A stretch of DNA of 64,000 bases. Origin: Streptomyces sp. R41. Lineage in GTDB: Bacteria; Actinomycetota; Actinomycetes; Streptomycetales; Streptomycetaceae. The stretch covers positions 7,795,001 to 7,859,000 of the forward strand of contig NZ_CP163443.1 of NCBI RefSeq assembly GCF_041053055.1, in the 5' to 3' direction. Below are positions 45,456 to 64,000 of this stretch, piece by piece (position 1 is the stretch's first letter; each line of letters begins with the position of its first letter). The notes beneath the pieces are model-generated. The model saw only the letters and a program-made list of their open reading frames with translations, made no database searches and was not told where the DNA came from. The translations under genes were made by a program, and so were the position numbers.

Positions 45456-46472
45456 TCAGGGCTTGAGGAGGGCCTTGATGGCGCGGCGTTCGTCCATCGC
45501 CTTGTAGCCCTCGGCGACCTGCTCCAGCGGCAGCGTGAGGTCGAAGACCTTGCCCGGGTTGATGTGACCGGACAGCACGCGGTCGATCAGGTCGGGCAGG
45601 TAGCGGCGAACGGGAGCCGGGCCGCCGCGCAGGCCGACCTGGGAGAAGAACAGCTCCTGGCCGTCGACGGCGACCTCGTGCGGGACGCCGACGAAGCCGA
45701 CGTTGCCGCCCGGGCGGGCGGAGTGCAGGGCCTGGCTCATGGACTGGGAGGTGCCGACGCACTCCAGGACGGAGTCGGCGCCGATGCCGCCGGTGAGGTC
45801 CTTGATGCGGGCGACGCCTTCGTCGCCGCGCTCGCTGACGATGTCGGTGGCGCCGAACTCCAGGGCGAGCTTCTGCCGGGACTCGTGCCGGGACATGGCG
45901 ATGATCCGCTCCGCGCCGAGCTCCTTCGCGGCGATGACCCCGCACAGGCCGACCGCGCCGTCACCGACCACGACGGCCGTCGAGCCCGGCTTGACCTCGG
46001 CGGCGAGGGCCGCGTACCAGCCGGTGCCCATCACGTCGGACACGGCCAGCAGGCTCGGCACCAAGTCGCCGGAGGGGTGCTCGTCGGTGGCCACGAGGGT
46101 GCCGTGGGCGTTGGGAATGCGCACGTACTCGGCCTGGCAGGTGCCCATGAACTCGCGGTTCAGGCAGGAGGATTGCCAGCCCTTCTGGCAGTTCGCGCAG
46201 GTGTTGTCCGACGTGGCGAAGGAGCCGACCACGAACTGGCCGGGCTTGACGTTGCCGACCTCGCTGCCGACTTCCTCGACGATGCCGACGTACTCGTGGC
46301 CCATCGGGTGCGGGTCGCCGACCGGCTCCAGGCCGCGGTACGGCCACAGGTCCGAGCCGCACACACAGGTGGCGACCGTGCGGATGATCGCGTCCGTCGG
46401 GTTGACGATCTTGGGCTCGGGGGCGTCCTCCACCCGGATGTCACCGGGGGCGTGGATCACGGTTGCGCGCAT
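45456..46472 (-). CDS. Zinc-dependent alcohol dehydrogenase family protein
   Basis: 338 residues. Catalytic-zinc residues Cys38 (CGSD) and His59-Glu60 (GHEYVG). The structural-zinc loop is DNTCANCQKGWQSSC, with three cysteines rather than the usual four. The nucleotide-binding motif is VVGDGAVGLCGV (near 168-179). It oxidises an alcohol or reduces an aldehyde, substrate unknown. Divergent from a broken MmyB-like regulator with a shared operator-like repeat (46660-46676) between. Confidence 0.9.
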   Translation of the reverse strand: MRATVIHAPGDIRVEDAPEPKIVNPTDAIIRTVATCVCGSDLWPYRGLEPVGDPHPMGHEYVGIVEEVGSEVGNVKPGQFVVGSFATSDNTCANCQKGWQSSCLNREFMGTCQAEYVRIPNAHGTLVATDEHPSGDLVPSLLAVSDVMGTGWYAALAAEVKPGSTAVVVGDGAVGLCGVIAAKELGAERIIAMSRHESRQKLALEFGATDIVSERGDEGVARIKDLTGGIGADSVLECVGTSQSMSQALHSARPGGNVGFVGVPHEVAVDGQELFFSQVGLRGGPAPVRRYLPDLIDRVLSGHINPGKVFDLTLPLEQVAEGYKAMDERRAIKALLKP

Positions 46473-46659
46473 GACTTTTCTCCTGATGCGTTTCTCGGGC
46501 AGCGGGGCACCCGGACGTGCCGGATTCGTCGACGATGGTCAAAAGGGAAAGGGTGTACAGAAGCGCCGACGGCCCGTGAAAATAATTGCCGGTCTCTGAC
46601 TCTGTCACCGCCCGCAGGGCCCGTACAGAGGAGAATTTCACCCCCGGAGAGATGTATCC

Positions 46660-46676
46660 AGGGATAAAACCTTCCT
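46660..46676. promoter_or_regulatory. Operator candidate 1 (AGGGA-N7-TTCCT)
   Basis: AGGGATAAAACCTTCCT, a 17-bp inverted repeat between the alcohol dehydrogenase and regulator genes. One of seven copies with identical spacing. Confidence 0.65.
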
Positions 46677-46712
46677 ACCCAGCCGAGTGGCGGACAGCGC
46701 AGACTGGCCAGT

Positions 46713-47571
46713 ATGAACAGCAGTGCGCACCATAAGGAGCTGGGTCAATTCCTGAAGGCCCGTCGGGCCGAGCTCAGCCCCCGCACGGTCGGGCTGCCCG
46801 AAACCGACCGGCGCCGACGCGTGGCCGGACTGCGCCGGGACGAGGTGGCCGTGCTGGCCGCCATCAGCACCGACTACTACACCCGCCTGGAGCAGGGCCG
46901 TATGGACCCCCTCCGCGTCCGTGTTGTCTGAACTCGTCCGGGTCCTGCACCTCAGTGACGACCAGCGGGACCATCTGTTCGAGCTGGCCGGAAAGGAGGC
47001 CGGTTGGGCACGGCGGCGGGCCCAGCAGAAGGCGCACCCCCGGCTGCGCAGCGTGCTGAACGAGCTCAGCGTGGCCCCCGGCGTGATCCTGGGCCGGCAC
47101 CTGGACATCCTGGCGTGGAACCCGATGGCCGCCGCCCTGTTCGGCACCGATTTCGCGAAGGTCCCCCAGCAACAGCGCAACTACGTCCGGCAGCTCTTCA
47201 CCGGCCCGGCCATGAGAACGCTGTACGCAGACTGGGAGGACTCCGCCCGCAACGCCGTGGCCGTGCTGCGGCAGCAGGCCGCGCCCTGCCCCGACGACCG
47301 GAGACTGGCCGACCTCGTCGGTGAGCTGTCGGTGCAGGACGACCAGTTCCGCCAGTGGTGGGGAGGCCGCCCAGTGGTGCCCCGGACCGGCGGCACCAAG
47401 GTGTTCGACCACCCGGTCGCCGGTGAACTCTCCCTCGCCTGGGACGCCCTCACCTGCGTGGCCGACCCCAATCAGCAGCTGATCGTGTGGAGCGCCGAAC
47501 CCGACTCGCGTACGTACGAGGGCCTGCGCTTCCTTTCCTCCTGGGCGGCGACCCCCGCCATGAATTCGTAA
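46713..47571 (+). pseudogene. MmyB-like helix-turn-helix regulator, frameshifted
   Basis: First 72 codons from ATG 46713 give an XRE-type helix-turn-helix (LGQFLKARRAELSPRTVGLP, ISTDYYTRLEQGRMDP). An extra C in the C5 run 46907-46911 shifts the frame. The rest continues in the next frame from about 46912 to 47571 with the MmyB ligand-binding domain (ILAWNPMAAALFGTDF, QFRQWWGG). With one C fewer the protein would be about 285 residues, like its two paralogues in this window. A homopolymer sequencing error is possible. Confidence 0.85.
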
Positions 47572-47600
47572 AATCAGCAGGCGATTCCCGGCGTAAAGCC

Positions 47601-47617
47601 AGGGACAAATCCTTCCT
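47601..47617. promoter_or_regulatory. Operator candidate 2 (AGGGA-N7-TTCCT)
   Basis: AGGGACAAATCCTTCCT, 87 bases upstream of the flavodoxin-fold gene start. Confidence 0.65.
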
Positions 47618-47703
47618 GCCTTCGCTGTTGAATTCCGTGCCATGCTTCCAGAGCACGATTCATGCAATCCCTTTCGAGATCCTTTTCGAGGAGCAATACC
47701 CCC

Positions 47704-48303
47704 ATGTCCTCCACCTCCCGCCCCACGGTCGCCGTCGCATTCCATTCCGGCTACGGCCACACCGCCGTCATAGCCGAGGCCGTGGCGCGCGGTGCCTCGG
47801 AAGCCGGTGCCGAGGTGATCTCCATCCCCGTGGACACGATCACCGACGAGCAGTGGGCGCAGCTGGACGCCGCCGACGCCATCATCTTCGGTGCCCCCAC
47901 CTACATGGGCACCGCCTCCGCCGCCTTCCACACCTTCGCCGAGGCGAGCAGCAAGCGCTGGTTCACCCAGACCTGGGTCGACAAGATCGCCGCCGGTTTC
48001 ACCAACTCCGGTGCCAAGAACGGCGACAAGTCCTCGACCCTGGGCTACTTCTTCACCATGGCCGCCCAGCACGGCATGCACTGGGTCAGCCTCGGCGTCC
48101 AGCCGGGCTGGGCCTCCACCGAGGGCAGCGAGGACGACATCAACCGTCTGGGCTACTTCGTCGGGGCAGGTGCCCAGACCCCGACCGATGCCGGCCCGGA
48201 GGCCGTCCACAAGTCGGACATCGCCACCGCCGAGGGCCTCGGCGCCCGCGTCGCGCAGCAGACCGCCTTCTTCCGCGCCGGCCGCGCCGCTCTCGCCGCT
48301 TGA
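47704..48303 (+). CDS. Flavodoxin-fold NAD(P)H-dependent FMN/quinone reductase family protein
   Basis: 199 residues of WrbA/NADPH-dependent FMN reductase fold. The phosphate-binding loop is FHSGYGHTAVIAEAV (near 12-26) and GAPTYMGTASAAF (near 67-79) contacts the flavin ring. Likely a two-electron quinone reductase. ATG 47704 has GAGGAG upstream. It begins a co-directional run with the NTF2-like, PfpI-like and MoaF-like genes. Confidence 0.87.
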   Translation: MSSTSRPTVAVAFHSGYGHTAVIAEAVARGASEAGAEVISIPVDTITDEQWAQLDAADAIIFGAPTYMGTASAAFHTFAEASSKRWFTQTWVDKIAAGFTNSGAKNGDKSSTLGYFFTMAAQHGMHWVSLGVQPGWASTEGSEDDINRLGYFVGAGAQTPTDAGPEAVHKSDIATAEGLGARVAQQTAFFRAGRAALAA

Positions 48304-48339
48304 GACAAGTCCCCCTGTAGATCCCCAAGGAGCACTCTC

Positions 48340-48729
48340 ATGTCCGACTCCCCGAATCTCGCTCTCGTTCGCCGCCTCTACGACTCCGGCATGGCCCCGG
48401 ACGTGGTCGCCGAGGTCATCGACCCCGAGATCGTCTGGGACATCACTCCCGGCTTCCCCTACGGCGGCGTCTACAAGACCTGGGCGAGCGCGGGCGGCGA
48501 CTTCTTCGGCCGGCTCGCGCCGCGCTTCACCTCCTTCGGCGCGGTGGCCGAGGAGTTCTACGACGCCGGCGAGCACGTGTTCGTGCGTGGCCACTACCAC
48601 GCGGTGTCCAAGTCCGGCGAGGAGTCGGACGCTCGCTTCATCCACCTGTGGACGGTCGGCGACGGCAAGCTCACCCACCTTGTGCAGGCCGCCGACAGCC
48701 ACGTCGTCCAGCTGGCCGCGACCAGCTGA
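48340..48729 (+). CDS. NTF2-like (SnoaL-type) protein
   Basis: 129 residues, alpha+beta barrel of the nuclear transport factor 2 fold (ALVRRLYDSGMAPDVVAEVI at the start, HLWTVGDGKLTHLVQAAD near the end). Members isomerise or hydrate small molecules or just bind them. AAGGAGC is seven bases before the ATG. Cotranscribed with the flavodoxin-fold gene (36 bases). Confidence 0.85.
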   Translation: MSDSPNLALVRRLYDSGMAPDVVAEVIDPEIVWDITPGFPYGGVYKTWASAGGDFFGRLAPRFTSFGAVAEEFYDAGEHVFVRGHYHAVSKSGEESDARFIHLWTVGDGKLTHLVQAADSHVVQLAATS

Positions 48730-48749
48730 CCGCCCTCAGGGAGAAACCC

Positions 48750-49451
48750 ATGACGAAGATCCTCTTCCTCATCACCGCCGCCGACCACTGGACCCTGGCC
48801 GACGGGTTCGAGCAGCCGGCCGGCTTCTGGGCCGAGGAGGCCATCGGCCCGTACGGCGTCTTCAAGGAGGCCGGCTACGAGATCGCCGCGGCCACCCCGG
48901 GCGGCGTCCCGCCGACCCCCGACGCACTCAGCCTCACCCCGGACTTCAACGGCGGCGAGGAGGGTGCCGAGCAGATGCGGACCGCCCTCAAGGAGGCCAC
49001 CGAACTGGCGAACCCCGTCCGCATCGAGGACGTGGACATCGACGACTACGACGCCGTGTTCGTGCCCGGCGGCTGGGGCCCGATGGAGGACCACTCCGAC
49101 GACCCCGCGGCCGGCAAGCTGCTCAGCGACTGGCTCGCCTCCGGCAAGCTCGTGACGCTGGTCTGCCACGGCCCGGCCGCGCTGCTGTCCACCGTGGACG
49201 CCGACGGCAAGTCCCCGTTCTCCGGCTACCGCCTGACCGGCCTGTCCAACTCCGAGGAGATCCAGAACGGCCTCGCCGACCGGGCGAAGTGGCTGCCTGA
49301 GGACCGTCTCGTCTCGGACGTGGGCGCGGACTACCACAAGGGTGAGGAGAACTTCGCCCCTCACCTCGAGGTGGACCGCAACCTTGTCACCGGCCAGAAC
49401 CCCGCCTCGGCCGTCCCGCTGGCCCAGGAAGTCGTCAAGACCCTCGGCTGA
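48750..49451 (+). CDS. DJ-1/PfpI family protein (Hsp31-like glutamine amidotransferase fold)
   Basis: 233 residues. The nucleophile elbow LVCHGPAAL holds the cysteine (near 132), and the acidic partner is in FWAEEAIGPY (near 27-36). VFVPGGWGPMEDH is the usual strand before it. This arrangement fits the Hsp31/YhbO group that removes methylglyoxal or repairs glycated molecules. ATG 48750 has GGGAG upstream; 20 bases after the NTF2-like gene. Confidence 0.88.
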   Translation: MTKILFLITAADHWTLADGFEQPAGFWAEEAIGPYGVFKEAGYEIAAATPGGVPPTPDALSLTPDFNGGEEGAEQMRTALKEATELANPVRIEDVDIDDYDAVFVPGGWGPMEDHSDDPAAGKLLSDWLASGKLVTLVCHGPAALLSTVDADGKSPFSGYRLTGLSNSEEIQNGLADRAKWLPEDRLVSDVGADYHKGEENFAPHLEVDRNLVTGQNPASAVPLAQEVVKTLG

Positions 49452-49488
49452 TGACACCACCCCCGTACGACAGAAAGAGGTAGTACCG

Positions 49489-49827
49489 ATGGACAGCAAC
49501 GCGACTCTCCCCAGCGTCGGCCAGACCTGGCTCGCGGACCTCGGCCCCGACACCCCGCTCGGCCACTTCACGGTGGAGATCACCTTCGACTCGGCGACCC
49601 AGGTCAGCTTCGAGGTGACGGGCGGCGCCATCAAGGGCCGTAAGCAGACGATGGAGTACACCACCACCCAGCTCCGCGACGGCCTGTTCGTCGTCCGCTG
49701 GACCGAGCCCGACGCCGGTGACCACGTCACTCACATCGAGGACTACACCGAGGGCACGTGCATGGCCAGCTCGGTCATCGGTGGCGAGTTCGTCCAGCTC
49801 CACGGGAAGTGGAGCCGCGTCCGCTGA
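49489..49827 (+). CDS. MoaF-like small beta-barrel protein
   Basis: 112 residues, lipocalin-like: GHFTVEITFDSATQVSFEV, then MEYTTTQLRDGLFVVRWTEP and SSVIGGEFVQLHG. Resembles MoaF-type domains. No catalytic residues are evident; probably binds a small molecule. AAAGAGG eight bases before ATG 49489. Last gene of the run. Confidence 0.72.
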   Translation: MDSNATLPSVGQTWLADLGPDTPLGHFTVEITFDSATQVSFEVTGGAIKGRKQTMEYTTTQLRDGLFVVRWTEPDAGDHVTHIEDYTEGTCMASSVIGGEFVQLHGKWSRVR

Positions 49828-49867
49828 TCCTGCAGGGCAGCGCGGCTTCTCGACGGTGAGGACTTCC

Positions 49868-49884
49868 AGGGACAAATCTCTCCC
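49868..49884. promoter_or_regulatory. Operator candidate 3 (AGGGA-N7-CTCCC)
   Basis: AGGGACAAATCTCTCCC, 38 bases upstream of the intact MmyB-like regulator, suggesting autoregulation. Confidence 0.65.
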
Positions 49885-49921
49885 CCTGACAACACCGCTT
49901 TCCGATGCCAAGGTGAATGGC

Positions 49922-50791
49922 ATGAACCGCGATCCTCACCGCCACGATCTGGGGGAATTCCTCAAGGCGCGCCGCGCCGAGCTCGACCCGGCCGCCGTCG
50001 GTCTGCCCGACGGCGGCTCGCGTCGTGTCGCGGGCCTGCGCCGTGAGGAGGTCGCCGTACTGGCGGCCATCAGCACCGACTACTACGCCCGCCTCGAACA
50101 GGGCCGGATCCAGCCGTCGCCGTCCGTGCTGGAGTCCCTGGCCCGGGTGCTGCGCCTGGACGAGGACCAGCGCGCCTACCTGTACGAGCTCGCGGCCAAG
50201 GACGAATTCCGCCCGCCGCGTCGGCAGCCGCGCCTCAAGGCGCAGCCGCAGCTGCAGCGCATGCTCGACGACATGGCGCACACCCCCGCGTTCGTGATCG
50301 GTCCGCGCACCGAGATCGTCGCCTGGAACGCCATGGGCGCCGCTCTGATCACGGACTTCGGGAAGATCCCCGAGAAGCAGCGCTACTACATAAGGCTGCT
50401 CATCACCGACCCCAGGATGCGCGAGCTGTACGCGGACTGGGAGGGCGTCACTCGGCTGGCCATCGCCCAGATGCGGATGCATAACGCCAACAACCCCGGT
50501 GACACGCAGCTCGCCGCCCTGGTGGGTGAACTCTCGGTCCGGGACGAGCAGTTCCGCCAGTGGTGGGGCTCCCACCACGTCGCCGTCCGGGACACCGGGA
50601 CCAAGCACCTGCGCCACCCCGTCGTCGGTGACCTGCACCTCGACTGGAACGCCGTCACCTGGGCCGCCGACCCCGACCTGGCGATCATCGTCTGGACCGC
50701 CGAATCCGGCACCCCGACCCACGACAGCCTGCGCATGCTGGCGTCCTGGGCAGCGGACCCCAGCCACTCGACCAGCGACAGCTCCGCCTGA
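49922..50791 (+). CDS. MmyB-like helix-turn-helix transcriptional regulator
   Basis: 289 residues. XRE-type DNA-binding domain at 8-90 (LGEFLKARRAELDPAAVGLP, ISTDYYARLEQGRIQPSP) and an MmyB-type ligand-binding domain at 105-280 (VAWNAMGAALITDFGKIP, QFRQWWGSHHVA, HPVVGDLHLDW). The ligand is thought to be hydrophobic. This family often stands beside oxidoreductase genes. The nearby repeats at 49868, 50838 and 50870 are its likely operators. ATG 49922 has AAGGTG upstream. Confidence 0.9.
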   Translation: MNRDPHRHDLGEFLKARRAELDPAAVGLPDGGSRRVAGLRREEVAVLAAISTDYYARLEQGRIQPSPSVLESLARVLRLDEDQRAYLYELAAKDEFRPPRRQPRLKAQPQLQRMLDDMAHTPAFVIGPRTEIVAWNAMGAALITDFGKIPEKQRYYIRLLITDPRMRELYADWEGVTRLAIAQMRMHNANNPGDTQLAALVGELSVRDEQFRQWWGSHHVAVRDTGTKHLRHPVVGDLHLDWNAVTWAADPDLAIIVWTAESGTPTHDSLRMLASWAADPSHSTSDSSA

Positions 50792-50793
50792 CC

Positions 50794-50833
50794 GTCGCCC
50801 AGGCATTCCCTTCGTCGCCCAGGTATTCCCTTC
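50794..50833. repeat. 20-bp tandem duplication after the regulator gene
   Basis: GTCGCCCAGGCATTCCCTTC at 50794-50813 is repeated at 50814-50833 with one change (T for C). It directly abuts operator candidate 4. Confidence 0.8.
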
Positions 50834-50837
50834 AAAG

Positions 50838-50854
50838 GGGGAGCCTTTCCTCCT
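50838..50854. promoter_or_regulatory. Operator candidate 4 (GGGGA-N7-CTCCT)
   Basis: Upstream of the DHA2 exporter; fits RGGGA-N7-YTCCY. Confidence 0.55.
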
Positions 50855-50869
50855 ACGCGCCCCGCGCCT

Positions 50870-50886
50870 AGGAAGAGGTTCTCCCT
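50870..50886. promoter_or_regulatory. Operator candidate 5 (AGGGA-N7-TTCCT on the minus strand)
   Basis: Reads AGGAAGAGGTTCTCCCT on the plus strand. Its centre is 32 bases from candidate 4, about three helical turns, which would allow cooperative binding. Confidence 0.6.
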
Positions 50887-51045
50887 TTTTCGTGTACGGC
50901 TCTCCTGGCACGCTCATCACGAGGCCCACCGCGCCGCGCGTCCCCGCCCCCGGTCCGGCCTTCTCCCCACCGACAGAACCGGTTTCCTCAGCGCCGAGGC
51001 GTCCGACCTGCCTGCTCATCCGCCAGGAAAGAGACCCCTTTCCCC

Positions 51046-52467
51046 ATGTCCCTGACCCAGTCCCGCCCCGGGACGCTGCCCTCGGCCGCCCCCGAACCGC
51101 GCTGGACCGCCCGCCTCTGGGCCGTCCTGGCCGTCCTGTGCCTCGTGCTGTTCCTCGACGGCCTAGACGTCTCCATGGTCGGCGTCGCCCTGCCCTCCAT
51201 CGGCCACGACCTCGGCATGGCCACCGGCTCACTGCAGTGGATCATCAATGGCTACGTCCTCGGCTACGGCGGCCTGATGCTACTCGGCGGCCGCACCGCC
51301 GACCTGCTCGGACGCCGCCGCGTCTTCCTCGTCGCGCTGGCCGTCTTCGCCGCCGCCTCGCTGCTCGGCGGCCTCGTCGACAGCGGCTCGCTGCTGATCG
51401 CCACCCGCTTCGTCAAGGGCGTGGCCGCCGCCTTCACCGCGCCCGCCGGCCTGTCGATCCTCACCACGACGTTCCCGGAGGGCCCGCAGCGCAACCGGGC
51501 GCTGTCGGTCTTCAGCCTCTTCGGCGCCCTGGGCTACTCCTCGGGCCTGATCCTGGGCGGTCTGCTCACCGGGATCGGCTGGCGCTGGACCTTCCTGATG
51601 CCGGTACCGCTCGCCCTGCTCGCACTCGTCGTCGGCCTGATCCTGATCCCGCGCGACCGCCGCACCGAGACCGGCGGTCAGGACCCGGCCGGAGCGGTCA
51701 CCCTCACCGCAGGCATGCTGCTCGCCGTCTACGCCGTGGTCACCGCCCCTCAGACGGGCTGGACCTCCGCGGCGACGCTCGCCGCCTTCGGCGTCGCCGC
51801 CCTGCTGCTGCTCGCCTTCGTCCTGATCGAGCAGCGGGTCCGGCATCCGCTGGTCCGCTTCGGCATCCTGCGCAAGGCCACCACGGTCCGGGCCAACCTC
51901 AGCATCGTCGCGCTGATGGGCTCCTACCTCAGCTTCCAGTTCATGATGACGCTGTACCTGCAGGACGGGCTCGGCTGGTCCCCCCTGCGCATGGCCTTCG
52001 CGCTGCTGCCCGTCGGCCTGATCGTCGCCGTCGGCTCGCCCCTCACCGGCCGACTCGTCAACCGCTTCGGCACCGCGCCGCTGATCATCACCTCGATGAC
52101 CTCGCTGACCCTCGGCTACGTGTGGTTCCTGGCGACGGCCGGCTCCTCACCCGACTACGTCACCGCCATGCTCCCGTCCCTGCTGCTTCTCGGCGGCGGC
52201 TTCGCGTTCGGCTACAGCGCCATCATGGCCCAGGCCACCGAAGGCATCGCCGACTCCGAACAGGGCCTCGCCTCCGGCCTGGTGCAGACCTCCGGCCAGG
52301 TCGGCGCCGCCCTGGTCCTCGCCGTCCTCACCGCCGTGATCACCCAAGCAGGCGACAGCGGCGCCGACTTCACCGCCTACCACCCCGGCCTGAACCTGGT
52401 CACCGGAGTCGCCGCGGTCGGGCTGCTCTTGAACCTGGTCCCCGTGCTGCGTCTGCGGCGGCGCTGA
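51046..52467 (+). CDS. MFS drug exporter, DHA2 (14-helix, EmrB/QacA) family
   Basis: 473 residues with about 14 membrane helices. Motif C-like and A-like signatures are present: LDGLDVSMVGVALPSIGHDL in helix 1, GGRTADLLGRRRVFL after helix 2. Exports toxic organic compounds by proton exchange. AGGAAAG lies some 20 bases before ATG 51046. Preceded by two operator candidates, so probably controlled by the MmyB-like regulator. Confidence 0.9.
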   Translation: MSLTQSRPGTLPSAAPEPRWTARLWAVLAVLCLVLFLDGLDVSMVGVALPSIGHDLGMATGSLQWIINGYVLGYGGLMLLGGRTADLLGRRRVFLVALAVFAAASLLGGLVDSGSLLIATRFVKGVAAAFTAPAGLSILTTTFPEGPQRNRALSVFSLFGALGYSSGLILGGLLTGIGWRWTFLMPVPLALLALVVGLILIPRDRRTETGGQDPAGAVTLTAGMLLAVYAVVTAPQTGWTSAATLAAFGVAALLLLAFVLIEQRVRHPLVRFGILRKATTVRANLSIVALMGSYLSFQFMMTLYLQDGLGWSPLRMAFALLPVGLIVAVGSPLTGRLVNRFGTAPLIITSMTSLTLGYVWFLATAGSSPDYVTAMLPSLLLLGGGFAFGYSAIMAQATEGIADSEQGLASGLVQTSGQVGAALVLAVLTAVITQAGDSGADFTAYHPGLNLVTGVAAVGLLLNLVPVLRLRRR

Positions 52468-52480
52468 GCCCCGACAGACC

Positions 52481-52516
52481 GAAAGCCGACCCGGGGCTGG
52501 CCCCGGGTCGGCTTTC
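52481..52516. terminator. Bidirectional terminator after the exporter
   Basis: A perfect 16-bp stem, 52481-52496 with 52501-52516, loop CTGG, between convergent genes. Confidence 0.85.
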
Positions 52517-52528
52517 CGCGAGCACCGC

Positions 52529-53393
52529 TCACGCGAGGTTCTTGGTGAAGAACTCCTCCAGCTTGTCGAACGGGATCAGGTCCGTCCTGTCGTACAGGTC
52601 CACGTGGTTGGCGCCCGGGACGACGTACAACTCCTTCGGCTCCGCGGCGAGTTCGCAGGCATCCTCGCTGAAGTAGCGCGACTGCGCGTGCTCACCCACG
52701 ACGAACAGCAGGGCCCCCGGCGAGATCGACGCGACCTCGACGGGGATGGCGTCGTGGACGGCCTGCACGGCTTCGGGGATGGTCATGACGTCGTCGTGCT
52801 CCTGCGCCACCAGCGTGGGCATGGTGATGGCGGAGGCGTACTTCGCAGGTGACTGCTCTGCCAGATGGAAGCCGGTGCGCTCCAGCACGGCCTGGTCGAG
52901 GCGGTCGTAGCCGCCCTCGAAGCCGAGGGCCTTGGAGAACTGTTCGCCGATGGAACGGCCCTCCAGCGGCTGGAGCATGACATTTGCCTGGATCTCGGCG
53001 AACTCCTCGGGGTGCTTGGTCCAGGCGACGGCGGTGGAGTTGGCGCCCAGGCACACCGACAGCAGGGCCTTCTTCATGTTCTTGGTGTCGGGGCGTGCTG
53101 CGGCGTAGCGCCTCGAAGCCGCCGAAGCGGTCCCAGCCGGGCAGGTGTCCGGGGTAGCCGTAGCGGTTGCCGGGGGAGAAGTGGTTGTGGGTGATCAGCC
53201 GGTCGGAGTCGGCCGGGATGAACCACCCTTCGAGAGGAACGCCGTCCATCGACGGGAACGTCACGTCCTCGTAGGCCAGGCCCAGTTCGGAGGGGCGGCG
53301 CAGCAGAGGCGCGCGCCGGCCGTCGGTGGTGCCTTCCGTCCACGGCCCGACGAATCAGTTGAATGCCGGCTCGGCCATGTCGAGTTCGGTCAT
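52529..53393 (-). pseudogene. Alpha/beta hydrolase with in-frame stop and internal deletion
   Basis: From ATG 53393 (MTELDMAEPAFN) the frame meets TGA at 53355-53357, then continues in the same frame (FVGPWTEGTT, TFPSMDGVPLEGWF, GWDRFGGFE). Near 53110 a stretch of roughly 60-70 codons, which should hold the strands and helix before the nucleophile, is missing. The homology resumes in another frame with YAAARPDTKNMKKALLSVCL to the catalytic-His region ANHVDLYD and the end at 52529. Two independent lesions make it non-functional. Confidence 0.85.
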
Positions 53394-53494
53394 GGTGCGC
53401 TCCTGATTTCCCGGCAAGGGTGCTTGATGTGTGAACGGATTTCCCGCATCTTGAGCTCTGCCTGGATAGAGAAAGAGGGGGGAGGGATTCTCCC

Positions 53495-53511
53495 GGGGAA
53501 GAATTCCTCCC
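53495..53511. promoter_or_regulatory. Operator candidate 6 (GGGGA-N7-CTCCC)
   Basis: GGGGAAGAATTCCTCCC. It sits inside a larger imperfect inverted repeat (about 53475-53515) between the alcohol dehydrogenase at 53540 and the broken hydrolase, so it could also act as a terminator. Confidence 0.5.
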
Positions 53512-53539
53512 CCCTCTGGGGGGCGGGGTGAATCCGGGG

Positions 53540-54583
53540 TCAGATCGTCGCGGTGTCGATAACGAACCGGTACCGGACGTCGCTCGCCAGCACCCGCTCG
53601 TACGCCTCGTTGATCTCGGACGCGGCGATGACCTCGATCTCGGCGCCGAAGCCGTGCTCGGCGCAGAAGTCCAGCATCTCCTGGGTCTCGGCGATGCTGC
53701 CGATGGCGGAGCCGGCGATCGACCTGCGGCCCATGATCAGAGGGAAGACGTTGACGGAGATCGGCTCCTCTGGGGCGCCGACGTTGACCAGGGCTCCGTC
53801 GATCTTCAGCAGGTTCACGTACCCGCTGAAGTCCAGCGGGGCCGAGACCGTGGAGACGATCAGGTCGAAGGTGCCGGCCAGCTCCTCGAAGGTCTTCGGG
53901 TCGCTGGTGGCGTAGTAGTGGTCGGCGCCCAGTTTGAGGCCGTCGCCTTGCTTGCGCAGGGACTGGGAGAGGACGGTGACCTCGGCGCCGAGCGCGTGGG
54001 CGATCTTGACGCCCATGTGGCCGAGGCCGCCCAGACCGACGATCGCGACCTTCTTGCCGGGGCCCGCACCCCAGTGCTTGAGCGGGGAGTACAGGGTGAT
54101 GCCCGCGCACAGCAGCGGGGCGGCCACGTCGAGGGCGAGGCCGTCGGAGATGCGGACGGCGTAGTTCTCGTCGACGACGATCTTCTCGGAGTAGCCGCCG
54201 TAGGTGGGCTGACCGTCCTTGTCGAGATAGTTGTACGTCTGGATCATGCCGCCGCCGGTGCAGTACTGCTCCAGGCCGGCCTTGCAGTGGTCGCACTCGC
54301 GGCAGGAGTCGACGAAGCAGCCGACGCCCACCCGGTCGCCGACCTGGTACTTCGTGACGCCAGGGCCGACCTCGGAGACGACACCGGCGATCTCGTGACC
54401 GGGGACCATCGGGAAGATGGCGGTGCCCCAGCCCTCCTGGACCTGGTGGATGTCGGAGTGACAGATACCGGCGAACTTGATGTCGATCAGCACGTCGAAT
54501 TCGCCGACCGGGCGCCGCTCGATGGTGGTGCGCTCCAGCGGAGCCTTGGCGGCGGGAGCGGCGTAAGCAGCAACGGTGGTCAT
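53540..54583 (-). CDS. NAD(P)-dependent alcohol dehydrogenase (cinnamyl alcohol dehydrogenase-like, YahK type)
   Basis: 347 residues. Catalytic zinc: Cys41 (GICHSDIH), His63-Glu64 (GHE) and a cysteine in LLCAGITLY. The structural-zinc set is complete: [15 protein letters not shown]. Cofactor motif [10 protein letters not shown], with a following Ser/Arg pattern favouring NADPH. This class reduces a wide range of aldehydes. Divergent from the molybdenum aldehyde oxidoreductase operon with operator candidate 7 between. Confidence 0.92.
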
Positions 54584-54987
54584 GTGGGGGATCTCCTAGC
54601 AGTGCTCTCGCGCCCGGCTGCCTTCCGACCAGGCACGGTGACGAGCATGCCTCGCCGCCGGGAAATCACCCAGGGCAGGAATGTGCCTACGTTCGCGGTT
54701 CCTACCACTGTCAGAGTCAGGCTCTTGCCCATCGGCATGCGAATTGCGTCGTGCCCTCAAGAATTCAGTTCGCTCACCGTCTCCTTCTCATGGACAAGAC
54801 CACGAGAAGGCAAAGGGGGGATAAAAGTCTCCCTGCCGCGAGTGTCGCCGGTGATGCAAGACTTCCGGCGTGATCGGCCGCCGCTGCCAAGGCGCGCGGT
54901 CGCCCTCTCCTCGCGGCGGCGTTGATCCCGCGCCTGCTGCCCCGCTGTTGTTCACGACTGTCCCGTCCGTGATGCGAAGGCGTACGT
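54584..54987. other. Divergent promoter region with operator candidate 7
   Basis: 404 bases between the alcohol dehydrogenase and the aldehyde oxidoreductase operon. Apart from the 17-bp repeat at 54817-54833 I see no gene or RNA. Confidence 0.5.
54817..54833. promoter_or_regulatory. Operator candidate 7 (GGGGA-N7-CTCCC)
   Basis: GGGGATAAAAGTCTCCC, 155 bases upstream of the iron-sulfur subunit start. Confidence 0.6.
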
Positions 54988-55626
54988 ATGTCTGCTGACC
55001 TCTCTGAATCCGCAGTTCCACCCTCGACCGAATCGGGTGAGTCCCCCTCGGGGCCCAGCCGACGTACCGTCATCGCCACCGGTGTCGTGGTGGGCGGTGC
55101 CGTGGTGGCCGGAGGGACGTTCCTCGCCGGCTCGGAGGAGGCCACCGCCGCGGAGGCGGCGCCCTCCAGCCGGGTCTCCCTCACGGTCAACGGCACCCGC
55201 CGCACCGTGACGGTGGACAACCGCACCTCGCTCCTCGACCTGCTGCGCGAGCACCTCGACCTGACCGGCTCCAAGAAGGGCTGCAACGCCGGGGCCTGCG
55301 GGGCTTGCACGGTGCTGGTCGACGGTCAGCGGGTCAACTCCTGTCTGACGCTGGCCGTTCGGCTGGAGGGCGCCGACGTCACCACGATCGAGGGCCTGGC
55401 CAAGGGCGACCAACTCCACCCGCTGCAGCAGGCGTTCATCGACGAGGACGCCTTCCAGTGCGGGTACTGCACCCCGGGCCAGATCATGTCCGGCGTCGCG
55501 TGCATCCAGGAGGGCCACACCAACTCGCCGGAGGAGATCCGGGAGTACATGAGCGGCAACGTCTGCCGCTGTGGCTGCTACGTCAAGATCGTGCGCGCGG
55601 TCGAACAGACCGCGGGCCGGAAGTAA
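54988..55626 (+). CDS. yagT: Aldehyde oxidoreductase [2Fe-2S] subunit (YagT/PaoA type), Tat-exported
   Basis: 212 residues. A twin-arginine signal (SRRTVIATGVVVGGAVVAGG) precedes the ferredoxin-like domain (about 62-140) with CNAGACGACTVLVDG and the second cluster domain with CGYCTPGQIMSG and CRCGCYV. Passes electrons from the molybdenum subunit to FAD. GCGAAGG lies seven bases before ATG 54988. First gene of yagTSR-xdhC. Confidence 0.92.
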   Translation: MSADLSESAVPPSTESGESPSGPSRRTVIATGVVVGGAVVAGGTFLAGSEEATAAEAAPSSRVSLTVNGTRRTVTVDNRTSLLDLLREHLDLTGSKKGCNAGACGACTVLVDGQRVNSCLTLAVRLEGADVTTIEGLAKGDQLHPLQQAFIDEDAFQCGYCTPGQIMSGVACIQEGHTNSPEEIREYMSGNVCRCGCYVKIVRAVEQTAGRK

Positions 55627-63106: not shown

Positions 63107-63976
63107 TCAGGCGAGAGGAGGAGAGGCCGTCAGGTTCTGGTCGGCGGCCCATGAGGCGAGGATGCGCAGCCGCTCGTGGGTGGGGGAGCCGGGTGCGGCC
63201 GTCCAGACGGTGAGGTGCTGGTCGGGGTCGGTGTTGGCGGTCAGGGTGTCCCAGTCCAGGACGAGTTCGCCGACCACCGGGTGGTTGAGGGTCTTCGTGC
63301 CCACCGTGCGGGCCGCGACACGGTGGTCGCCCCACCACTGGGCGAACTGCTTGTCGCGCAGGGACAGTTCACCGACCAGCTCCATGAGGCGGGGGTCCTC
63401 GGGATACTTCGCGGCTTCCATCCGCAGCTGTGCCACGGCGAGCCGCGCCGAGGTCTCCCAGTCGGCGTACAGGGTGCGCATGGCCGGATCCGTGAAGCTG
63501 ATCCGCGGGTAGTTGCGGTGCTTCTCCGGGATCCGGGAGAAGTCGGTGACCAGCGCTGCCGCCAGCGCGTTCCAGGCCAGGATGTCCCCGCGCCGGCCCT
63601 GCACGATGGCCGGGGTGGCGGTGAGATCGTCCAGCACGCGCTGCAACTGCGGCTGGACCTTCTGCCGCCCCCGGCTGCGGGCGCGGGTGGTGGTCTTGCC
63701 GGCGAGCTGGAAGAGATAGCCGCGTTCGTCGTCATCGAGATGGAGCACCCGGGCGAGCGTGTCCAGCACGGGTGCGGACGCCTGCATACGGCCCTGTTCG
63801 AGACGCGTGTAGTAGTCGGTGCTGATGCTGGCGAGCTGGGCGACCTCTTCGCGGCGCAGCCCGGCGACCCGGCGGGGGCCACCGTTGTCGGGCAGGCCGA
63901 CGGTGCGCGGGCTCAGCTCGGCGCGGCGCTTCTTGAGGAATTCTCCCAGCTCGTTGAGGGGAACATTGCCGGTCAT
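63107..63976 (-). CDS. MmyB-like helix-turn-helix transcriptional regulator (third copy)
   Basis: 289 residues, a paralogue of the regulators at 46713 and 49922: LGEFLKKRRAELSPRTVGLP, ISTDYYTRLEQGRMQASA, ILAWNALAAALVTDFSRIP, QFAQWWGDHRVA. ATG 63976 gives the same length as the 49922 copy and has GGGCGG before it; ATG 63988 is possible. Its promoter lies past the window, so its operator cannot be checked. Confidence 0.9.
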   Translation of the reverse strand: MTGNVPLNELGEFLKKRRAELSPRTVGLPDNGGPRRVAGLRREEVAQLASISTDYYTRLEQGRMQASAPVLDTLARVLHLDDDERGYLFQLAGKTTTRARSRGRQKVQPQLQRVLDDLTATPAIVQGRRGDILAWNALAAALVTDFSRIPEKHRNYPRISFTDPAMRTLYADWETSARLAVAQLRMEAAKYPEDPRLMELVGELSLRDKQFAQWWGDHRVAARTVGTKTLNHPVVGELVLDWDTLTANTDPDQHLTVWTAAPGSPTHERLRILASWAADQNLTASPPLA

Positions 63977-64000
63977 GCCGCCCAGCATGACACCGAACGC

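Follow-up and report, generated by a model that had tools for sequence, protein, structure and literature searches.

Among described members of the MmyB/MltR family, MmyB of Streptomyces coelicolor recognises pseudo-palindromic 'B-boxes' and switches on its targets (Xu et al. 2012, PMC3406030). The same paper predicts that MmyB/MltR members control adjacent dehydrogenases, including a mycothiol-dependent formaldehyde dehydrogenase next to SCO4944 (S. coelicolor) and SGR_6891 (S. griseus), and reports a medium-chain dehydrogenase near MltR of Chloroflexus aurantiacus (PDB 3pxp); its available text gives no operator sequence for any of these. A further XRE regulator, MsrR of Corynebacterium glutamicum, controls itself and a major facilitator superfamily (MFS) exporter in a stress response, and the authors of that work count MltR as one of the few XRE relatives to have been studied (available part of PMC7532634). 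Here we analysed a 64,000-nucleotide stretch of Streptomyces sp. R41 (contig NZ_CP163443.1, positions 7,795,001 to 7,859,000; 'the window'), in which a palindrome, GGGA-N8-TCCC, recurs around the genes of the MmyB/MltR-family regulator RegB and its broken copy RegA. We consider it likely that RegB is an autoregulated activator of a regulon that detoxifies aldehydes, quinones and dicarbonyls, and that this palindrome is its operator.

RegB belongs to the same protein family as MmyB, although MmyB controls an antibiotic cluster while the predicted RegB targets are detoxification genes, and the two are likened by description rather than by B-box letters. The aldehyde link shared with SCO4944 and SGR_6891 is one of neighbouring genes. 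A profile of 11 regulators matched MltR with an E-value of 8.5e-8, whereas RegB alone found no solved structure at E 0.001. In open-access titles and the beginnings of abstracts, we found no operator of the MmyB/MltR family or of this form among the matches listed, the original B-box work lying outside the scope of that search. According to the available part of Wang et al. 2025 (PMC12565409), palindromes occur upstream of XRE genes, some of them tested by gel shift, and GGGA-N8-TCCC may be among the 223 motif clusters given there.

The first-pass annotation of the window had reported a 17-bp palindrome, RGGGA-N7-YTCCY, at seven places within 8.2 kb (46660..54833), and each of its seven coordinates (46660, 47601, 49868, 50838, 50870, 53495 and 54817) matches exactly. 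These give eight matches, the eighth being the 53495 palindrome, which also matches on the opposite strand. The register had to be moved: the true symmetric unit is the 16-bp GGGA-N8-TCCC, and the 17-mer is one base off. All seven places fall between homology-supported genes, and to that extent the intergenic position claimed for them holds. Window shuffles (n = 100) gave a mean of 1.49 matches and a maximum of 5. Across the whole genome (one contig, 10.46 Mb) the pattern has 161 matches versus 204 for the reversed control, which agrees with the earlier estimate of about one chance match per 64 kb; it is at chance level and not enriched, and the proposed genome-wide scan with it proved useless, ruling the loose pattern out as a regulon finder. 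At that density 0.13 matches are expected in 8.2 kb, with a probability of about 6e-11 for at least seven, or about 8e-8 once multiplied by how many such windows there are. The anomaly is the clustering at this locus, not the loose pattern itself, and the claimed excess beyond chance was borne out. Of the genome-wide matches, the first 30 listed (29 distinct places) all fall where an open frame runs for 132 codons or more, which says little because long open frames are common in such G+C-rich DNA. With up to three mismatches, the refined word was found at four places in the genome (three of them window sites), against three for its reversed control. The places and regulators are as follows, with ADH1 and ADH2 standing for two zinc alcohol dehydrogenase genes.

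49869..49884, plus strand: candidate operator GGGACAAATCTCTCCC, putative autoregulatory site of the intact regulator RegB, kept in 19 of 21 close relatives
49886..49914, plus strand: predicted RegB promoter, with -35 CTGACA (49886-49891), 17 nt, and -10 CAAGGT (49909-49914)
49922..50791, plus strand: RegB, intact MmyB/MltR-family regulator of 289 aa (HTH_31 and MLTR_LBD)
46661..46676, plus strand: candidate operator GGGATAAAACCTTCCT between ADH1 (minus) and RegA (plus), with -10 CAGACT (46700-46705)
46713..47571, plus strand: RegA, broken regulator copy, frameshifted, its STDYY helix and ligand domain in different frames
47602..47617, plus strand: candidate operator GGGACAAATCCTTCCT of the flavodoxin-fold reductase operon, with -10 CATGCT (47641-47646)
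50839..50854, plus strand: upstream arm of an inverted pair before the exporter, with no -10 of its own
50870..50885, plus strand: downstream arm of the inverted pair, with -10 CACGCT (50909-50914) toward the exporter
53496..53511, minus strand: doubtful site 3' of ADH2 and upstream of a broken hydrolase, in a strong hairpin
54818..54833, plus strand: candidate operator GGGATAAAAGTCTCCC between ADH2 (minus) and the aldehyde oxidoreductase (plus), with a weak -10 AAGACT (54858-54863)
63107..63988, minus strand: Reg3, second intact regulator, with the same STDYY helix, HTH_31 and PF17765

Both intact regulators match the N-terminal XRE-type helix-turn-helix model HTH_31 in Pfam (E 2.8e-14 for RegB, 3.7e-12 for Reg3), and the ligand-domain model MLTR_LBD (PF17765) matches RegB (3.3e-54), Reg3 (5.2e-60) and the RegA remnant (4.3e-51). 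The frameshift confirms the earlier description of RegA as a broken copy, and single-frame relatives of it stand in loci L059, L079 and L086.

To examine conservation, we used 33 loci with RegB relatives, drawn from one scan of genome contigs. In 20 of the 33, the exact pattern precedes the regulator by 53 or 54 nt. Where the regulator shares 80% identity or more with RegB the count is 19 of 21, and in the remaining two, L071 (Kitasatospora) and L078, degraded copies occupy the same place. In these 21 close relatives, which span Streptomyces, Kitasatospora, Kribbella, Nocardia and Streptacidiphilus, the operator columns carry 1.67 bits each versus 0.23-0.34 in the DNA 70-110 nt upstream. The other 11 loci without the exact pattern (L076, L077, L080-L085, L087, L088 and L090) hold more distant relatives or a fragment, and in L080-L085 and L087 a longer palindrome built on GGGA..CCC lies at about the same place. 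Because GGGA-N8-TCCC holds a constant position ahead of the regulator gene in almost every close relative examined, it is probably the docking site of the cluster-encoded regulator. Other sites are kept as well: the 46661..46676 pattern is at the same place in L058, L060, L062, L079 and L086, and that of 54818..54833 is upstream of the aldehyde oxidoreductase gene in L058, L059 and L086. Where gene order differs, sites travel with the reductase, exporter, oxidoreductase and RegA-type regulator genes; in L059 the oxidoreductase gene is relocated, its start lying about 4 kb behind the exporter versus 0.3 kb in L058. Chance combined with common ancestry, producing similar loose G- and C-rich words, would fit the genome-wide count, which does not exceed the reversed control. 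It is nevertheless extremely unlikely in view of the local excess, the conservation against diverged upstream DNA and the repeated spacing described below, and is contradicted at least for 46660, 47601, 49868, 50870 and 54817, each of which is kept in relatives.

Co-occurrence with MmyB-like genes, which the first-pass annotation had proposed to check, was found with the strict motif CAGGGANARAWCYYTCC in 150 Streptomyces genomes, counting as RegB orthologues those with at least 89% identity. The motif is present in 10 of the 150 genomes and an orthologue in six; all six genomes with the orthologue have the motif, versus 4 of the 144 without (Fisher 1.5e-8, with genomes that are not independent). 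Each of those four has one copy, and some of the 144 hold more distant RegB relatives; no RegB relative was found by tblastn within about 1.5 kb of the site in the four loci. By inspection, frames similar to those of a short-chain dehydrogenase and an aldo/keto reductase lie close to the site in one of these (L093), and in another (L095) the site sits inside a long frame.

The seven places had also been described as seven promoters, which is too many. Four of them (46660 CAGACT, 47601 CATGCT, 49868 CAAGGT and 50870 CACGCT) have a YANNNT hexamer that begins 24 or 25 nt beyond the 16-mer, 54817 has a weaker -10 (AAGACT) at the fixed spacing, and no -10 was found at that spacing at 50838 or 53495. 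By base frequencies, YANNNT falls at either of the two offsets in one direction in 1.7% of cases. As a control, the first 30 genome-wide matches were read in either direction, and only 3 have such a hexamer. In relatives, the spacing recurs at the downstream exporter arm in 7/7 cases and at other sites in 11/17, and is absent at the upstream exporter arm (5 relatives) and at a pair in L063; of 14 orthologous reductase promoters, counting that of the window, 13 keep a -10-like hexamer at this offset. In all five window promoters measured, 31.5-32.5 nt separate the operator centre from the first -10 base downstream, and the operator abuts the core promoter rather than covering it. The -35 has five of six letters at RegB and at most three of six at the other four. 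The ATG of regulator genes comes 12-13 nt after the first -10 base (13 in RegB, whose transcript is probably leaderless), pointing to leaderless transcripts and, if transcription starts there, to an operator centre near -44; this spacing is partly circular, as starts in our regulator table (see below) were picked with a -10 11-14 nt before them. The operator-to-helix distance, independent of the start codon, is likewise narrow. Across the regulator family, sites begin 39-40 nt upstream of the -10, frequently with further starts at 56-57 and 72-73, in 16-bp steps. Overlapping tandem operators in 16-bp steps were also seen at Reg3-type regulators (e.g. L125, L126, L148, and L312 of the same genome near 1032), with half-sites shared on nearly opposite helix faces.

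Class II activator sites are centred near -41.5 beside a weak -35, and an operator placed against a mostly poor -35 would be activator-like geometry. The same operator and regulators could instead work by repression, the dimer by the -35 blocking polymerase and leaving on an electrophile or oxidant. A precedent exists in MsrR, which represses its own gene and the neighbouring MFS gene and releases on oxidation (available part of PMC7532634), and RegB itself has a good -35, a feature that activation would make unnecessary. We nonetheless regard repression as unlikely: the operator abuts rather than covers the core promoter in five promoters, four of the five -35s are poor, and MmyB is described as switching its genes on (available part of PMC3406030). 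Inspection of the RegB and Reg3 sequences found no cysteine in either, ruling out a thiol switch like that at Cys62 of the repressor MsrR.

Two of the seven places, 50838 and 50870, belong together as the arms of a single inverted pair that precedes the exporter, 31 bp apart centre to centre. The upstream arm is exact at the same place in L058, L059, L062, L065 and L069 and inexact in L068 and L070. The pair may alternatively form, together with 53495, the arms of terminator hairpins, leaving only four of the seven places in the regulon. The segment 50828-50900, starting about 45 nt after the regulator stop, folds strongly (-34.9 kcal/mol, z -4.1) with a T run, and the four relatives tested (L059, L065, L068 and L069) fold too, with z from -2.3 to -6.4. 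Two inverted copies of one palindrome base-pair anyway, however, and across eight sequences none of the 24 stem pairs is changed on both sides (13 are invariant, with 88.5% of cells paired), while the T run is uninterrupted in three and interrupted in five. Moreover, the downstream arm has a -10 at operator spacing in the window and in 7/7 relatives, and in L065 the pair stays near the exporter despite an extra gene between it and the regulator. Our first reading of 50870 as a terminator arm was overturned by the stem-pair count and by reading the -10 geometry both ways. We take 50870 as the predicted exporter operator and 50838 as its upstream partner, and consider terminators at all three places rather unlikely.

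For 53495 itself, a terminator is likely. This place had been put upstream of an alcohol dehydrogenase and is actually 3' of that gene (53540-54583, minus) and upstream of the broken hydrolase. It is doubtful as an operator because a hairpin (53460-53540, minus; -37.6 kcal/mol, z -2.3) stands just after ADH2, promoter geometry is lacking and a similar pair was found only in L063.

The recognition helix of RegB reads STDYYARLEQG. The genome has 23 loci of the MmyB/MltR family. Our first helix pattern matched 14 of them, among which STDYY occurs only in RegA, RegB and Reg3, and further STDYY regulators may exist among the remaining nine, which fall outside that pattern. We compared 219 family members (95 after dropping those at least 85% identical), a non-random sample formed by part of the matches to RegB, to the regulators of L112, L031 and L114, and to a search of the same genome. 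GGGA-N8-TCC was present at the fixed offset in 19 of 31 STDYY..RLE representatives versus 6 of 61 others, a difference inflated by shared ancestry; three further representatives without an assignable start were set aside. In a smaller, start-codon-free set with redundancy kept, 69 of 78 STDYY..RLE members have a site within 300 nt upstream, with 101 sites versus 19 for the reversed pattern. At the same promoter place, the SVDYY class has a CCTGG..CAGTACC type (the CAGTACC half in 15 of 28) and the SPDYY class has GGGACA-N4..6-GGCCC (5/5). STEYY..RLE regulators have GGTA..TACC in seven of eight cases, or in two of three representatives versus 0 of 89 others. In a tree made by a quick method (SH-aLRT support only), GGTA-type STEYY..RLE proteins appear at two separate places, one of them beside a GGGA-type STDYY protein with support 98. 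Operator change with a changed recognition-helix residue is thus seen in two lineages; a third lineage with such a residue change departs from this. A predicted structure model has residues 52-59 as helix and was judged too weak for a fold search (mean predicted local distance difference test score, pLDDT, 64). In another clade (SIDYY, RLERGKE; L034, L035, L037 and L039 of the same genome), words like TTCAGGGGTNTGACAGGGCCCC precede promoters and form a candidate operator of their own.

These comparisons also bear on whether some other DNA-binding protein owns the sites, with the MmyB-like genes merely among its targets. Sites do precede non-regulator genes as well. However, clades of the same family carry different palindromes at the same promoter position, the operator differs with recognition-helix residue 53 in two lineages, and strict sites are nearly confined to genomes with a RegB orthologue, making this explanation very unlikely.

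Assignment of the sites as operators of MmyB-like regulators, with autoregulation, appears well supported by the fixed place in 19 of 21 close relatives, the movement of sites with their presumed targets, the co-occurrence and the operator change. Reg3 probably uses GGGA-N8-TCCC too, its candidate operator lying just past the window end beside a divergent short-chain-dehydrogenase-like frame (label by inspection). Several results weigh against the RegB reading. In 11 of the 33 loci the matched gene is directly preceded neither by the exact pattern nor, as far as examined, by a degraded copy, class-specific palindromes aside, and the proximal site of Reg3 deviates from the pattern at two positions. 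Three of the seven places lack the strict -10 geometry, and the genome-wide control rate of YANNNT in either direction, 3 in 30, is higher than the 3.4% that base frequencies predict. At 22 non-regulator sites, -10 offset 40 has 14 matches and the next-best offset, 53, has eight, both fed mostly by orthologous promoters. Among regulators, GGTA was found in none of 18 STEYY..RIE members, seven of which have GGGA-N8-TCC; L089 (STEYY..RLE) has neither a GGTA nor a GGGA site, the STDYY rows L257, L260, L265 and L274 carry a different site, and L175, with an STDYY helix, carries an SPDYY-type site. The L175 case rules out a full helix code in which the residue before Asp (T, P or S) fixes the operator, and the helix rule is incomplete because STEYY..RIE regulators lack GGTA.

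More tentatively, and with slightly less than even confidence, we suggest that the streptomycete MmyB/MltR family may share one architecture: a leaderless, self-activated gene with an operator centred near -44 and sometimes more 16 and 32 bp upstream, the letters being set by clade and partly by the recognition helix (third-residue Asp to Glu accompanying GGGA to GGTA in the ..RLE context). Both this and the RegB reading are weakened by the partly circular leaderless spacing and the STEYY..RIE exception. If the family-wide rule is true, binding sites and targets of many uncharacterised members would be readable from sequence.

The predicted targets and neighbouring genes are listed below; NCBIfam scores of the cluster products are all below curated cut-offs, so that the families named are nearest models and not assignments.

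47704..49827, plus strand: predicted target operon, with WrbA-like quinone reductase, SnoaL-like, DJ-1/HchA-like and MoaF-like products
51046..52467, plus strand: predicted target, MFS drug-exporter-like, nearest models LmrA and DHA2/EmrB, below cut-off
54988..55626, plus strand: predicted target, Fe-S subunit of a molybdenum aldehyde oxidoreductase, nearest NCBIfam model PaoA, below cut-off
53540..54583, minus strand: possible target ADH2, zinc alcohol dehydrogenase, nearest NCBIfam model aldehyde reductase Ahr, below cut-off
45456..46472, minus strand: possible target ADH1, zinc alcohol dehydrogenase, divergent from RegA
52529..53394, minus strand: broken hydrolase-like remnant with an early in-frame stop and a frame change, the hydrolase label being without a family match

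With nearest models WrbA, HchA, Ahr, PaoA and MFS efflux, we infer that the gene set serves reactive-carbonyl and quinone detoxification. Dehydrogenases neighbour the regulators here too, namely the zinc alcohol dehydrogenases at 45456 and 53540 and the short-chain-dehydrogenase-like frame by Reg3. RegA (with ADH1) and Reg3 are divergent from a putative target, and RegB is not, lying on the same strand 3' of the reductase operon. A plasmid search with 46500-51100 returned nine partially matching records, none covering 80%, and was not used.

In the proposed mechanism, a RegB dimer would sit centred near -44, adjoining a -35 that is mostly poor, with a good -10 downstream, and with its ligand domain occupied would recruit RNA polymerase (class II activation). 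It would then switch on its own leaderless promoter together with the genes for quinone reduction, aldehyde oxidation or reduction, DJ-1-type deglycation and export. Membership of the MmyB/MltR family goes with dimer binding to a palindrome and with a fatty-acid-like or furan ligand; for RegB, the inducer may be a reactive carbonyl or quinone, sensed without cysteine. A position-anchored operator of this kind would make the regulon testable. For one clade it points to an aldehyde or quinone signal, and for other clades it gives a simple means of reading their sites.

Two further arrangements were seen elsewhere in the genome. At 3341052-3341090 (L311:2053-2091), two near-identical pattern copies 22 bp apart precede a related third inverted repeat, and the whole, possibly a different operator array, lies about 36 bp ahead of a small lipoprotein-looking frame. 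At 98693-101812 and, far off and in the opposite orientation, at 1549452-1552605 (L002, L003, L022 and L023), one pair of matched words recurs with a spacing of about 3.1 kb, which suggests a duplicated segment.

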